Part shown: positions 4,760 to 40,625 of the stretch, in pieces
Position numbering within the stretch: position 1 is the stretch's first letter
How the letters are laid out: each line of letters opens with the position of its first letter
Assembly: GCA_947631665.1 (NCBI GenBank)
Contig: CANRMF010000014.1
Location: 1 to 44,156, forward strand
Reading direction: 5' to 3'
Source: an uncultured Lachnospiraceae bacterium
GTDB lineage: Bacteria; Bacillota; Clostridia; Lachnospirales; Lachnospiraceae
Length of the DNA: 44,156 bases
Translations under genes and position numbers: made by a program
Notes under the pieces: generated by a model
Told to the model about the DNA's origin: nothing
What the model saw: only the letters and a program-made list of their open reading frames with translations
Databases searched by the model: none

Positions 4760-5497
4760 ATGAGATACGAAGAATTTATGATAGAAGGAAGAAATGCGGT
4801 CATCGAGGCGTTTCGCTCAGGGAAAAACGTAGATAAACTGTTTCTGTTGGAACACAGTAAAGAAAGCGCAGTCAATACCGTCATTCGCGAAGCAAAAAAA
4901 CAGGATACGCTGATTCAGTATGTGAAAAAGGAACGGCTTGACCAGATGTCGGAAACCGGACGTCATCAGGGCGTGATTGCCTATATTGCGGCTTATGAGT
5001 ATGCAACCGTAGATGAAATATTGAAAAATGCGGAAAAAAAGGGAGAAGCCCCATTTATTTTTCTGTTAGACGATATTGAAGACCCTCATAATCTGGGAGC
5101 GATTATCCGTACTGCAAATCTTGCCGGCGCGCATGGAGTTATTATTCCAAAGCGCAGGGCCGCGGGGCTGACCGCAACCGCTGTCAAGGCGTCTGCGGGG
5201 GCAATCCATTATACGCCGGTAGCGAAAGTAACAAATCTTTCCAAGACCATTGAAGATTTAAAAAAGCAGGGACTTTGGTTTGTCTGCGCGGATATGGGCG
5301 GCACAATGATGTATGATTTGGATTTTACCGGCAGCATCGGACTGGTGATTGGCAATGAAGGCAGGGGCGTCAGCCGTCTGGTAAAGGAAAAATGTGATTT
5401 TACCGCGGCAATTCCGATGGCGGGAGACATTGATTCGCTCAATGCGTCGGTTGCGGCAGGCGTGTTAGCCTATGAAATTGTCCGGCAGAGAAGATAA
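4760..5497 (+). CDS. rlmB: 23S rRNA (guanosine-2'-O-)-methyltransferase RlmB
   Basis: A SpoU/TrmH-type SPOUT methyltransferase of 245 residues. It has an N-terminal substrate-binding domain (1-75, MIEGRNAV start) and the three SPOUT motifs: N111 and R117 in DPHNLGAIIRTANLAGA, IGNEGRGVS (197-205), and LNASVAAGVLAYE (227-239), which form the knotted SAM site. The family methylates the ribose of G2251 (E. coli numbering) in the 23S P loop. Placement after mrnC gives two 23S maturation enzymes in a row. The stop codon lies inside the terminator stem at 5491. Confidence 0.92.
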   Translation: MRYEEFMIEGRNAVIEAFRSGKNVDKLFLLEHSKESAVNTVIREAKKQDTLIQYVKKERLDQMSETGRHQGVIAYIAAYEYATVDEILKNAEKKGEAPFIFLLDDIEDPHNLGAIIRTANLAGAHGVIIPKRRAAGLTATAVKASAGAIHYTPVAKVTNLSKTIEDLKKQGLWFVCADMGGTMMYDLDFTGSIGLVIGNEGRGVSRLVKEKCDFTAAIPMAGDIDSLNASVAAGVLAYEIVRQRR

Positions 5498-25122: not shown

Positions 25123-26238
25123 ATGAAAAAAGTATTTCTGGCGTTTTTCTGCATACTTTTACTGGCAGACTCGATTCCGGTCAATGCGAAAGAGCCGGAT
25201 TTAGGCTGCATTTCGGCGGTGTTAATTGACGCGGAATCCGGAAGGGTACTCTATGAAAAAAATGCTGAAGAAGAAAGGGCGATGGCAAGCACAACAAAAA
25301 TTATGACCTGTATGATTGCATTGGAACAGTCCAATCCGGAGGAACTTGTCACAGTTTCAAAAAATGCCACGCGTATGCCAAAGGTGAAAATGTACATAAA
25401 GCAGGGAGAACAGTACCGGCTGAAAGATTTATTGTATGCGCTCATGCTTGAATCGTATAATGATGTGGCTGTCGCCATCGCTGAACATATTGGCGGGAGT
25501 GTGAAAGGGTTTGCAAAGCGTATGAATCAGAAAGCAAAAGAACTGGGAATGATTCATACCCATTTTGTGACGCCGAATGGTCTGGACGCAAAAAAACATT
25601 ATTCCACTGCCAAAGACATGGCGCTTTTAGGCGCGTATGCCATCAAAAACCCGACGTTTCTGGAGATTGTAAACAAAAAAAATTATCGTATCAAAGAGCA
25701 GAAAAGCGGAAGAATAATTCAGGTTTCCAATAAGGACGCTTATCTCTCTATTGACGCTGATGCAATCGGAATTAAAACAGGTTTTACAAACCGCGCGGGA
25801 TATTGTTTTGTCGGCGCAGTGAAGCAGGACACAGCGGTCTTTACCTCCTGTGTGCTTGCGAGCGGCTGGCCGCCAAATAAAAATCAGAAATATACGGATA
25901 CAAAAAAACTGATGGCTTTTGGGAAACAGCATTTTAAAAAAGATTTATTAAAAATAAACAAAAAGGTTGTTCTGGATATTGATAATGGGCGTTTCAGTCA
26001 TCTGACGGCGCAGATTCAGGGCGAAAAAGAAATTTTAAAACAAAATCAGGAAAGTTACCGTTTTGAAACGAAATATTCTTATAAATTGCCAGTCAAAAAT
26101 AATCAGGTCATTGGTTATACTAATGTATATATTGGGGATTTCTGTTTTGGAAGTTTTGAAATCAGGGCGATGCATGATGTGCCGGTTTATGACTATCAGT
26201 ATTGTTTGAGGGATATTTTAAAACGGCTGTTTCCGTAA
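25123..26238 (+). CDS. D-alanyl-D-alanine carboxypeptidase (S11), second copy
   Basis: A 371-residue secreted S11 enzyme. The signal peptide is at 1-22 (MKKVFLAFF...PVNA). The active-site motifs are S56-x2-K59, S111-Y-N113 and K218-T-G220; the SYN form differs from the SGN of the copy at 22296, so the two are diverged paralogues rather than a recent duplication. The C-terminal part (about 280-371) is beta-rich. The start at 25123 follows AGGAGG at 25114-25119; an in-frame ATG at 25111 overlaps that site. DacB/DacF types in Firmicutes act on cell wall or spore cortex; which applies here is not clear. Confidence 0.92.
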   Translation: MKKVFLAFFCILLLADSIPVNAKEPDLGCISAVLIDAESGRVLYEKNAEEERAMASTTKIMTCMIALEQSNPEELVTVSKNATRMPKVKMYIKQGEQYRLKDLLYALMLESYNDVAVAIAEHIGGSVKGFAKRMNQKAKELGMIHTHFVTPNGLDAKKHYSTAKDMALLGAYAIKNPTFLEIVNKKNYRIKEQKSGRIIQVSNKDAYLSIDADAIGIKTGFTNRAGYCFVGAVKQDTAVFTSCVLASGWPPNKNQKYTDTKKLMAFGKQHFKKDLLKINKKVVLDIDNGRFSHLTAQIQGEKEILKQNQESYRFETKYSYKLPVKNNQVIGYTNVYIGDFCFGSFEIRAMHDVPVYDYQYCLRDILKRLFP

Positions 26239-26290
26239 AGTTCAGCTTGCAGCTCGAATCCGCTTCGCTGCTTGTCGCTGCGGTGGTGTT
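26237..26290. repeat. 54-bp direct repeat, copy 1
   Basis: It begins AAAGTTCAGCTTGCAGC at the stop of the second carboxypeptidase gene and ends GCGGTGGTGTT. It differs from copy 2 at two positions only (T/C and G/C). It can fold on itself through GCAGC/GCTGC and CGAA/TTCG. Confidence 0.9.
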
Positions 26291-26304
26291 AGCAGTTTAT
26301 TTTC

Positions 26305-26358
26305 AAAGTTCAGCCTGCAGCTCGAATCCGCTTCGCTGCTTCTCGCTGCGGTGGTGTT
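26305..26358. repeat. 54-bp direct repeat, copy 2
   Basis: This is the second copy, 68 bases after the first and separated from it by 14 bases. Its first 11 bases, AAAGTTCAGCC, also form the left end of the large palindrome that ends at 26442. Confidence 0.9.
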
Positions 26359-26442
26359 CCACCACCGGATAAAATAATTTTTCACCGAATAGTGCGCAAG
26401 CGCCCTATCGGCTCAAATTATTTTATCGGACGGCTGAACTTT
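26305..26442. repeat. Nested palindromic element (REP or MITE-like)
   Basis: Outer arms AAAGTTCAGCC (26305-26315) and GGCTGAACTTT (26432-26442) enclose several stems. One is CGGTGGTG/CACCACCG with a three-base loop (26350-26368). Another is a perfect 13-base pair, GATAAAATAATTT (26368-26380) with AAATTATTTTATC (26415-26427). Inside that lies an imperfect stem of CCGAATAG and GCGC. No open frame or transposase is present. With the direct repeats this fills most of the 26239-26600 gap; the rest (26443-26600) is A-T rich and leads to dapF. Confidence 0.8.
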
Positions 26443-26531
26443 GGGGCAAATTTAGTTTTACATCTGGGGATATCTGTGTTATATTTATACCAAATTGGGT
26501 TTTACACTAAATATTGTGTTTTTTTCTTTTA

Positions 26532-26600: not shown

Positions 26601-27434
26601 ATGAAGTTTACAAAGATGGAAGGTTGTGGAAACGATTATATTTATATCAACGGTTTTGAATACCAGATTGATAATCCGGAAAAACTTGCACAGAAGGTCA
26701 GTGACAGACATTTTGGAATCGGATCTGACGGACTGATTATTATCAATCCTTCTGCGGTTGCAGATTTCAGAATGGATATGTATAATGCGGACGGTTCTCA
26801 GGGAGAGATGTGCGGAAACGGTATCCGGTGCGTCGCAAAATATGTCTATGATTTCGGATTGACGGAAAAAAAGCAGATTACAGTGGAAACGCTTGGAGGA
26901 ATTAAAACACTTGATTTGACTGTTGTGGACGGAAAGGTTTCAACTGTCCGCGTCAATATGGGCGCGCCTGTCCTTGAAGCGAATAAGGTGCCGGTGCTCT
27001 CCGACAAAGAGCAGGTGATTGACGAGCCGGTTCAGGTGCTCGGAAAAACGTACCGGATTACATGCGTATCTATGGGAAATCCACACGCAGTAACATTTGT
27101 TGACGACACCGATGCTTTGGAGATTGAGCAGATTGGCCCATGCTTTGAACATGACAAAATGTTTCCAAACCGCGTCAATACGGAATTTGTACAGGTGCTT
27201 GACCGTAATACGATTAAAATGCGCGTTTGGGAAAGGGGCTCCGGCGAGACTTTTGCCTGCGGTACCGGTACATGCGCAAGCGTCGTCGCATGTGTCTTAA
27301 ACGGAAAAACAGACCCTCAGGTAACTGTCCATCTGCTGGGCGGAGATTTGTTTATTGAATATGATACGAATGAAAATACCGTCTATATGACCGGCCCGGC
27401 AAGGGTTGTATTTTGCGGGGAATATGATGCGTAG
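26601..27434 (+). CDS. dapF: Diaminopimelate epimerase
   Basis: DapF converts LL- to meso-diaminopimelate for lysine and peptidoglycan. The 277-residue protein has the two catalytic cysteines, C71 in GEMCGNGIRC and C220 in ETFACGTGTCAS, and the opening FTKMEGCGNDYIYI. The start at 26601 has GGAGG at 26591-26595; the frame stays open upstream to 26568 without a site. It sits directly before a murE that should use its product. Confidence 0.97.
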   Translation: MKFTKMEGCGNDYIYINGFEYQIDNPEKLAQKVSDRHFGIGSDGLIIINPSAVADFRMDMYNADGSQGEMCGNGIRCVAKYVYDFGLTEKKQITVETLGGIKTLDLTVVDGKVSTVRVNMGAPVLEANKVPVLSDKEQVIDEPVQVLGKTYRITCVSMGNPHAVTFVDDTDALEIEQIGPCFEHDKMFPNRVNTEFVQVLDRNTIKMRVWERGSGETFACGTGTCASVVACVLNGKTDPQVTVHLLGGDLFIEYDTNENTVYMTGPARVVFCGEYDA

Positions 27435-39255: not shown

Positions 39256-40577
39256 GTTTTGAACAAATGTTAGAAGATTCCATTAAGTCTGTTCATAATG
39301 GAAGCACTGTTGAAGGAAAGGTTATCAGCGTTAAGCCGGACGAGGCTGTTTTAAATATCGGGTATAAGGCTGATGGCATTCTCACAAGTACGGAATACTC
39401 TAATACACCTGTTGATCTGACAACTGTAATTTCAGTAGGCGATGAACTGACAGTAAAGGTTCTTAAAGTCAATGACGGCGACGGTCAGGTTGCCCTGTCA
39501 TACAAGAAGCTTGCTGCAGAGAAAGCAAATAAGAAAATTGAAGAAGCTTTTGAAAATAAAGAAGTTCTCAAAGCACCAGTTGTTCAGATTTTGAAAGGCG
39601 GTTTGAGTGTTGATGTCGATGGCGGCAGAGTATTTATTCCGGCAAGTCTTGTTTCAGATAATTTTGAAAGAGACCTGAATAAATATCTCAATCAGGAAAT
39701 CGAATTTGTAGTTACTGAATTTGAGCCGAGAAAAAGAAGAATTATCGGCGACAGAAAACAGTTGATTGTAGCGCAGAAAGAAGCTGCAAAGAAAGCGCTG
39801 TTTGAAAAGATTGAAGTGGGACAGGTCGTTGACGGCGTTGTAAAGAGCGTTGTTGATTTCGGTGCGTTTGTCGATATCGGCGGCGCGGACGGACTGCTTC
39901 ATATTTCCGAAATGTCATGGGGACGCGTTGGAAATCCAAGAAAATTATTCAAAGCCGGCGACAAAGTAACCGTTTTCATTAAAGAAATCAATGATGACAA
40001 GATTGCATTGAGCCTGAAATTTGAAGATACAAATCCTTGGACAAATGCTTCTGAAAAATTTGCGCCGGGCGTTATTGTTACCGGCAAAGTTGCCAGAATG
40101 ACAGATTTCGGTGCTTTTGTTGAAATTGAACCGGGCGTTGACGCCCTGCTTCATGTATCGCAGATTGCAAAGCATCATGTCGATAAACCTTCCGACGAGT
40201 TGAAAGTCGGACAGGAAATCGAGGCAAAGATTGTTGATTTCAATGAAGAAGAAAAGAAAATCAGCCTGAGCAGAAAAGTTTTACTTCCGGACGAAGAACC
40301 GGTAGAAACAGAAGAAGAACCTGCTGTCGAGACGGTTGAAACAATATCTGAGGAAGCCGCAGAGGAATCCGCACCGGAAGAAACCGAAGAAATATCTGAG
40401 AAAACTGAAGAAGTTGAAGAAGTATCTGAGGAAACTTCTGAAAAGGCTGAAGAAGCCGAAGAAACGTCAGAGGAAGCTTCTGAAGAAACCGAAGCAACTC
40501 CTGAGGAAACTGAAGAAACTTCTGAAGAAACAGCTGAGGAAACCGAAGAAACTTCTGAAGAAACTCCGGAAGCGTAA
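39240..40577 (+). CDS. rpsA: 30S ribosomal protein S1 (four S1 domains, acidic tail)
   Basis: An RNA-binding protein of 445 residues with four S1 domains at about 18-90, 105-175, 192-261 and 275-346; the third and fourth are the best preserved (DFGAFVDIGGADGLLHISEM, DFGAFVEIEPGVDALLHVSQI). Residues 351-445 are a low-complexity Glu/Thr/Ser tail with only two lysines, absent from E. coli S1. The protein is a shorter Gram-positive type, and its role in translation initiation is less certain than that of E. coli S1. AGGAGG at 39224-39229, inside ispH, serves as ribosome site. Confidence 0.9.
   Translation: MSEEMSFEQMLEDSIKSVHNGSTVEGKVISVKPDEAVLNIGYKADGILTSTEYSNTPVDLTTVISVGDELTVKVLKVNDGDGQVALSYKKLAAEKANKKIEEAFENKEVLKAPVVQILKGGLSVDVDGGRVFIPASLVSDNFERDLNKYLNQEIEFVVTEFEPRKRRIIGDRKQLIVAQKEAAKKALFEKIEVGQVVDGVVKSVVDFGAFVDIGGADGLLHISEMSWGRVGNPRKLFKAGDKVTVFIKEINDDKIALSLKFEDTNPWTNASEKFAPGVIVTGKVARMTDFGAFVEIEPGVDALLHVSQIAKHHVDKPSDELKVGQEIEAKIVDFNEEEKKISLSRKVLLPDEEPVETEEEPAVETVETISEEAAEESAPEETEEISEKTEEVEEVSEETSEKAEEAEETSEEASEETEATPEETEETSEETAEETEETSEETPEA
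40290..40575 (+). repeat. Low-complexity repeat encoding the S1 acidic tail
   Basis: Short GAA, GAG, ACT and TCT codon runs repeat imperfectly here, giving EETSEE-type blocks. The other plus frame is also open and would give a Lys/Arg/Leu-rich product, a by-product of the repeat. Confidence 0.85.
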
Positions 40578-40598
40578 GATTATTTTTATAGAACTGAT

Positions 40599-40625
40599 AA
40601 AAAGCAAGCATTTTGCTTGCTTTTT
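40599..40625 (+). terminator. Rho-independent terminator after rpsA
   Basis: The 12-base perfect stem AAAAAGCAAGCA (40599-40610) with TGCTTGCTTTTT (40614-40625) has a three-base loop. It ends the rpsA transcript 30 bases before rsmD. Confidence 0.9.

Follow-up and report, generated by a model that had tools for sequence, protein, structure and literature searches.

Among the repeated elements of bacterial genomes, BOX repeats have a modular structure. Bacterial MITEs include QMITE2 of Coxiella and the Correia elements of Neisseria, and SPRITE of Streptococcus pneumoniae is a terminator-like element, in the part of a review that deals with them (PMC10969869). IS66 elements have GTAA ends and 8-bp duplications according to the relevant portions of two sources (PMC12888890, PMC11946415).

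The locus described here lies in a window of 44,156 nt, the entire contig C14 of a draft genome (G000; 1.99 Mb, 94% complete) of an uncultured Lachnospiraceae bacterium. It is read, with a probability of about 0.78, as a non-autonomous MITE-type transposable element with a strand-specific four-way junction as its interior and one tandem duplication of its own 3′ part (P4 + P1′). This reading draws on direct observation of dispersal, inverted arms, 8-bp duplications around related copies in multi-copy genomes, an empty site, covarying helices and a variable number of units, and it is held with confidence as regards the family, its mobility and its fold.

Architecture of the window copy

Two 54-nt copies are located at 26237-26290 and 26305-26358, between ORFs which we take to be a dacF-type carboxypeptidase gene and dapF. 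They mismatch at 2 of 54 positions, as the preliminary description had reported, and the spacing of 68 nt that it gave is confirmed as the distance from start to start, with a gap of 14 nt between the copies. Their placement directly after the carboxypeptidase gene is likewise borne out; the dacF-type ORF stops at 26238, so that the last two bases of its stop codon already belong to the first copy. The ATG of dapF, read from the sequence, is at 26601.

The complete element is 140 nt long (26304-26443, minus strand) and has the order P1-P2-P3-P4-P1′, an assignment based on the minus-strand fold of 26303-26444, a covariance-model match (26305-26439, 93 bits) and an architecture common to other copies. 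The 5′ outer arm P1 (CAAAGTTCAGCC; 26432-26443, minus strand) is a terminal inverted repeat, complementary at 12 of 12 positions to the 3′ outer arm P1′ (GGCTGAACTTTG; 26304-26315, minus strand). An inverted repeat of 11 bases closing at 26442 had been described; it is real, and with 12/12 bp it is one base longer on each side (26304-26443). P2 is a long hairpin (26368-26427, minus strand) defined by fold and covariation. It starts with a 13-bp A-T stem, in which 26368-26380 and 26415-26427 are paired at 13 of 13 positions, continues with an imperfect inner stem and ends in a G[CTTG]C tip near 26394-26403; both stems had been noticed before, the former as a perfect 13-base stem. The short hairpin P3 (26350-26366, minus strand), defined by fold and sequence, reads GGTGGTG-GAA-CACCACC and has 8 bp including a flanking C-G pair. 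It corresponds to the eight-base G-C stem of the preliminary description, CGGTGGTG/CACCACCG around a TTC loop, of which the inner 7 bp fall within 26350-26366 and the eighth pair was read from the sequence. P4 (26317-26349, minus strand) is a conserved hairpin, GCAGCGAGAAGCAGCGAAGCGGATTCGAGCTGC, assigned from its position in the fold, from conserved alignment columns and from a core pattern that recurs in other genomes (see below); its conserved sequence on the minus strand is CAGCGAGAAGNAGCGAAGCGGATTCGAGCTG.

In the minus-strand fold P1, P2, P3, P4 and P1′ meet at a single four-way junction. The preliminary description had called for both strands to be folded, and as RNA 26303-26444 gives -63.1 kcal/mol on the plus and -69.8 kcal/mol on the minus strand (z = -7.8 and -8.2); none of 200 shuffled sequences matched this stability on either strand. 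The second 54-nt copy (26305-26358, plus strand) is, by repeat comparison, P1′, P4 and the start of P3 within the complete element. Repeat comparison and fold identify the first (26237-26290, plus strand), which overlaps the dacF stop, as an extra tandem unit composed of a P4 (26249-26281) and a P1′ (26237-26247). Folded alone, this extra unit preceding the element is unstable (z -0.02 and -0.29). On the plus strand the only ORFs reaching into the element are short (56 and 70 aa), and it has no transposase gene. Elsewhere in the window, a coding-like tract at 40377-40601 contains GAAGAAACTTCTGAA-type repeats, of which 11 overlapping copies were found.

Distribution, tandem units and traces of insertion

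The same P1-P4 order is found in different letters elsewhere in G000, on contigs C11 (two places), C2, C17 and C28. The P4 sequence of these copies is largely conserved; the letters of P1, P2 and P3 differ yet pair. Wider searches used a covariance model, R1 (39 sequences), which has just 14 base pairs because RNAalifold missed P1-P3 in the underlying alignment A1; its E-values are rough, and its figures for matches per genome and positive genomes are lower bounds. At E≤0.001 it finds 14 full-length and 6 partial matches in the G000 draft and is positive in at least 20 of 23 genomes of the genus, the own genome included. In the family, with up to 11 candidates scored per genome, at least 134 of 299 genomes are positive at E≤1e-5, and in the class, with up to 8 scored, at least 14 of 392 at E≤1e-6, 11 belonging to the same family and 3 to two other families. 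Two of these three out-of-family matches were inspected; one is a full junction, and the other keeps P1, P2 and P3 with a weak P4. The further copies on which the preliminary description had staked its reading are thus present in its own genome, genus and family. A BLAST-type search of 60 genomes gave 13 positives including the own genome, 12 of the same genus and one of another genus of the family. The exact P4 pattern occurs in 44 genome_contigs stretches, half of them (22/44) titled Lachnospiraceae and the others mostly Lachnoclostridium, Eisenbergiella, Eubacterium and the like, with a few titled 'bacterium' or Clostridiales. Several copies lie at the ends of draft contigs (G022:C11, G006:C126, G002:C27, G012:C73). 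Spread on phages or plasmids was rejected, since there were 0 exact P4 patterns in viral_contigs, no match to the window copy in phages and none to a G081 copy in plasmids.

Two single loci may be added. A stretch of 668 bp that includes a one-unit copy is 98.8% identical between G000 and G022 (L189/L197), while the DapF proteins are 73% identical, a difference that suggests a probable recent transfer. At L149:512-658 a fully paired, unrelated P4 (CAGCCTGAAAATTTC...AGGCTG) occupies the same P1-P3 frame; from this variant, a weak model match (E = 0.0045), the P4 slot may take other hairpins.

The extra units at other loci consist mostly of the 3′ part, that is P4, P1′ and some spacer at constant spacing; at L028 and L037 P2 and P3 are repeated as well. 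More than one unit, with a maximum of five, is present at 21 of the 60 distinct loci scanned, and the number is unequal in five of six comparable orthologous pairs, as it is between two copies of G013. The unit numbers are rough, as draft assemblies can collapse tandem repeats, and the orthologous pairs were hand-picked, a seventh (L227/L234) being excluded as cut by a contig end. The partial self-duplication proposed for the window is accordingly correct and recurs with varying unit number. By eye, the spacer between units differs from the flank behind the last unit, so simple slippage of an inserted element lacks support. Slippage or template switching prompted by the hairpins could multiply the P4 + P1′ unit.

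The local duplication, with its 2 differences in 54 nt, might also have arisen by chance beside a chance palindrome, with no wider family behind it. The same architecture at many loci of this and other genomes, with compensatory changes, speaks against such an accident, which is refuted by the genome-wide family and its covariation and is left with practically no probability.

The MITE-type element is further supported by an empty site. The distance between the end of the dacF match and dapF is 365 bp in G000 and 152 bp in its closest relative G011. All 11 informative relatives, meaning those whose fetched stretch contained the two genes together, have 98-219 bp; the remaining 11 of 22 gave no dacF match there. 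In G011 CCGTAG runs straight into TTTACATT, where G000 has about 213 extra bases. By comparison of spacing, the inserted DNA reaches from the dacF stop to TTTTACATC (26239-26455, borders approximate). A promoter-like TTTACA-17-TATATT lies in the native flank before dapF (26457-26485), and the insertion therefore lies between the end of dacF and what may be the promoter of dapF. TTTACA and TATATT stretches are found at the same place in several relatives, and the hits of the promoter scan are no more than chance expectation.

The ends of copies in G081, G208 and G160 are mostly GTAAC(A/T)(G/A)TTCAG...CTGAA(T/C)(A/T)GTTAC, that is GTAACAGTTCAGCC or GTAACTATTCAGAGCC with their complements, and those in G141 are mostly TTACAG...CTGTAA or similar. 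The end motif GTAACWRTTCAG occurs 125 times in G081 (2 for a reversed-pattern control) and 45 times in G208 (control 3), just 3 times in G000 and not once in G022 (control 1 in both). Target duplications were tested in the 65 of 134 collected copies with both end anchors, the 59 copies without TTCAG ends being left out. Of 196 flank offsets, the one placed symmetrically just outside GTAAC/GTTAC scores highest, with a mean identity of 3.86/8; the runner-up, shifted by one base, gives 3.69/8 and the median offset 2.6. Sixteen of the 65 copies match at ≥6/8, 13 at ≥7 and 4 at 8/8, where permutation of the flanks expects 2.0 (≥6/8) and 0.5 (≥7) (p = 5e-5 each, the lowest value attainable with 20,000 permutations, uncorrected for the choice of offset). 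Duplications of ≥6/8 flank 12 of 18 copies with intact ends and 4 of 47 others. The 16 copies come from G208 (6), G081 (5), G160 (2), G013 (2) and one MAG locus (L020); 0 of 9 tested copies from G141 reach 6/8. Exact 8-bp duplications are TATGAAAT (L298), GTATATAT (L276), TAAAATCA (L292) and GAAAAAAT (L282). Shortened copies of 48-109 bp keep both ends with most of the interior lost, and one of them (L333) is flanked by AATATTTT at either end.

The window copy itself has no GTAAC ends and no recognisable 8-bp duplication (2/8), and its membership rests on homology and the empty site. With respect to what characterizes a MITE, the element is short and lacks a transposase gene, it has terminal inverted repeats, and it has an empty site and, at the family level, a target duplication; no autonomous partner with the same ends was found in the loci searched. 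The preliminary description had proposed a REP or MITE class. Its MITE half is upheld by the inverted arms, the empty site and the duplications of related copies, and its REP half is not.

A REP/BIME element would be moved by a RAYT (Y1 HUH) transposase. The copies do form intergenic-looking, palindromic, tandem clusters, and the Y1_Tnp domain (PF01797) is over the cut-off in 5 of 23 genus genomes, among them G013 (51 R1 matches, partial units included) and G004 (12). However, it is absent from G000 and does not track the element across the genus, being present in G014 with 0 elements and absent despite elements from G002 (22 matches) and G012 (39; draft 65% complete). HUH transposition is not known to produce 8-bp duplications in the flanks. 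REP/RAYT mobility was therefore rejected as very improbable.

For the MITE-type element, a DDE-type transposase acting in trans would cut at the ends and join the element to target strands staggered by 8 nt. IS66 copies from the same bacterial family (L342, L346, L357) have GTAA ends and 8/8 duplications. Among 36 IS66 loci, of which only about 7 had recognised ends, there was no inverted pair matching the element ends beyond GTAA(C), only scattered single matches at ≤4 mismatches, and the IS66 domain PF03050 is absent from G000, G013, G012 and G208. As a direct parent IS66 was rejected, since wherever its ends are recognisable its inverted repeats are unlike those of the element, despite the agreement in GTAA ends and in 8-bp duplications. 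In 20 stretches around end motifs no transposase was recognised by eye, and the ORFs resemble ordinary host genes. Between the two transposase families searched, IS66 and Y1, an IS66-like mobilising enzyme is the best guess, at somewhat under even odds. A tyrosine-recombinase region at L085 (G019) was rejected as an autonomous form, since its 68-bp duplication is the end of a rubrerythrin gene and not the element. This duplication (L085:1545-1612 and 5236-5303) bounds a tyrosine-recombinase-like ORF region, as in an integrated island. At L085:5391-6832 (G019:C1) two ORFs, by eye an IS3-type transposase pair, lie in the apparent P2 tip of another copy, and the hairpin tip may thus be an IS target.

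Covariation, strand and gene context

Covariation was measured on a separate alignment, A2, of 42 TTCAG-type copies (51 selected, 9 left out by hand for odd length or near-related loci). In A2 26 of 36 pairs have changed on both sides, and 94.9% of cells are paired. The covariation score, 0.562, is reached by 0/500 shuffles, which score 0.150, and compares with 0.069-0.100 when the structure is slid, a control in which it is favoured, having been derived by RNAalifold on A2 itself with hand-added pairs. All 12 counted pairs of the outer P2 stem covary across the 42 copies. In the nine G141 copies of A2, differing P2 pairs stay Watson-Crick 128 times and are lost in one copy 16 times. The same copies are 95% identical in P3 with the junction, 86% in P4, 88% and 87% in the two ends and 88% in the P2 tip, and only 72-73% identical in the outer P2 arms. 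These identities and pairing counts indicate that in the outer P2 stem it is the pairing that is preserved; in P3, P4 and the tip it is more the letters themselves.

The fold, as judged from pair counts, belongs to one strand. At P2 positions 11-28 from the tip, to which the counts were limited as the junction begins beyond 28, G-T outnumbers A-C by 50:24 in 69 TTCAG-type copies and by 37:4 in 57 other copies, and A-G outnumbers C-T by 33:2 and 18:4, respectively. The counts cover 126 of 134 copies with a distinct usable hairpin, with arms aligned without favouring G-T, and are non-independent as the copies are related. By themselves they do not separate RNA from single-stranded DNA. The 5′ arms of P2 have A over T at 504:152 and 546:271 in the two subgroups and the 3′ arm is T-rich, a composition that resembles a two-way intrinsic terminator. 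In A2, CCAT of the 5′ arm (columns 16-19) can pair with either of two ATGG stretches, one before P3 (columns 87-90) and one in the 3′ end arm, and these mutually exclusive pairings are a possible switch.

The two subgroups differ in their relation to genes, ORFs having been called crudely and counted only within 400 nt. The TTCAG-type copies (75/134) have no orientation preference relative to the upstream ORF (28 co-directional, 39 opposite), whereas of the 59 of 134 without TTCAG ends 51 have a near upstream ORF and 45 of these run in its direction, 23 of the 45 beginning ≤20 nt from the stop codon. Judged by their translated or nucleotide 3′ ends, several of the genes upstream of this second subgroup are presumably infA, groEL, rubrerythrin and rpsI. 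The infA-adjacent site is common to six genomes, in which orthologous copies are retained, and a groEL-like 3′ end, named by eye, precedes copies at six loci (L031, L038, L043, L044, L056, L058). None of the 134 copies lies inside an ORF, but this carries no weight, as an inserted copy would itself break the ORF. The subgroup without TTCAG ends looks like function rather than transposition, which counts against a plain MITE reading, and its stronger G-T bias would fit a role as a transcribed 3′ structure.

The preliminary description had named a structured RNA as the alternative to a mobile repeat. It is worth considering that the repeat is primarily a structured RNA or 3′-end device, co-transcribed with the upstream gene and terminating or protecting the mRNA end, with mobility as its mode of spread. 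The strand bias of P2 in both subgroups, the co-directional non-TTCAG copies, their persistence behind infA and the groEL-like gene and the terminator-like excess of A in the 5′ arms all argue for this, and a covarying fold on one strand is what would be expected of an unclassified structured RNA. On the other hand, the orientation of the TTCAG copies is unbiased, the window copy gives no terminator-like match in a simple scan, and P2 acting as a terminator would leave P3, P4 and P1′ untranscribed. A known RNA family was rejected, as Rfam 15 finds tRNAs alone at gathering score in the window and nothing at that score in 6 related loci, where permissive matches below it are mostly to microRNA models on the long hairpin. 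A device of this kind is a minority reading, to which we give about one chance in three.

The conservation of P3, P4 and the P2 tip inside the element is not something that plain MITEs need, and was counted against the MITE reading. Within the MITE-type element, selection would keep the fold of the element strand, aiding mobilisation or giving host genes a 3′-end structure. P4, P3 and the CTTG tip being conserved by sequence and the outer P2 stem by pairing alone, the interior may be a functional folded single strand (RNA, or DNA exposed in replication or transposition) and not passive MITE filler, a view that we hold tentatively, at a little less than an even chance. If it is true, the family unites a cut-and-paste element that has inverted ends and duplicates 8 bp of its target with a covarying four-way-junction nucleic acid, two things that are usually separate, and retention behind infA, groEL and rubrerythrin would be domestication as a Lachnospiraceae 3′-end module.

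Relation to known systems

No described repeat family of this kind in the Lachnospiraceae was found in the literature searched, most subscription papers lying outside it. The Lachnospiraceae dominate mammalian guts. Nearly half of the sampled family genomes have at least one copy (at least 134/299) and some carry dozens of matches. As the copies move, adjoin promoters and stop codons and vary in unit number, regulatory variation can readily arise from them, and they lend themselves to strain typing. With its conserved and covarying interior, the family allows a test of whether a MITE can carry a functional structured nucleic acid.

Like BOX, RUP and SPRITE of S. pneumoniae, the family consists of strongly folding, modular repeats between genes in which the number of modules varies; compared by description, it differs in that its modules are P4 + P1′ units of a four-way junction and in the GTAAC ends of part of the family. 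Like REP/BIME elements it forms palindromes clustered between genes, but it is about 140 nt long with four helices and 8-bp duplications, and does not consistently go with Y1_Tnp. It has GTAA ends and 8-bp duplications in common with IS66, as far as the latter is covered by the relevant portions of the IS66 sources (PMC12888890, PMC11946415), whereas beyond GTAA(C) the inverted repeats differ, with GTAACCGTCAAATAA, GTAAGCGTCAAATAA and GTAAGTAGGAAATAATCC in IS66 and GTAACAGTTCAGCC or GTAACTATTCAGAGCC in the element. The closest likeness in kind is to bacterial MITEs as characterized in the pertinent part of the review (PMC10969869), with which it shares a length below 500 bp, the absence of genes, terminal inverted repeats, direct repeats around young copies, deletion derivatives and a stable fold of the transcript. 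No parent IS was recognised for it, and unlike those MITEs it has a covarying four-way-junction interior, P3, P4 and P2 tip conserved in sequence, and one half that amplifies in tandem. It is an element of an ordinary kind, a MITE, with an unusual conserved and covarying interior and a modular tandem habit.
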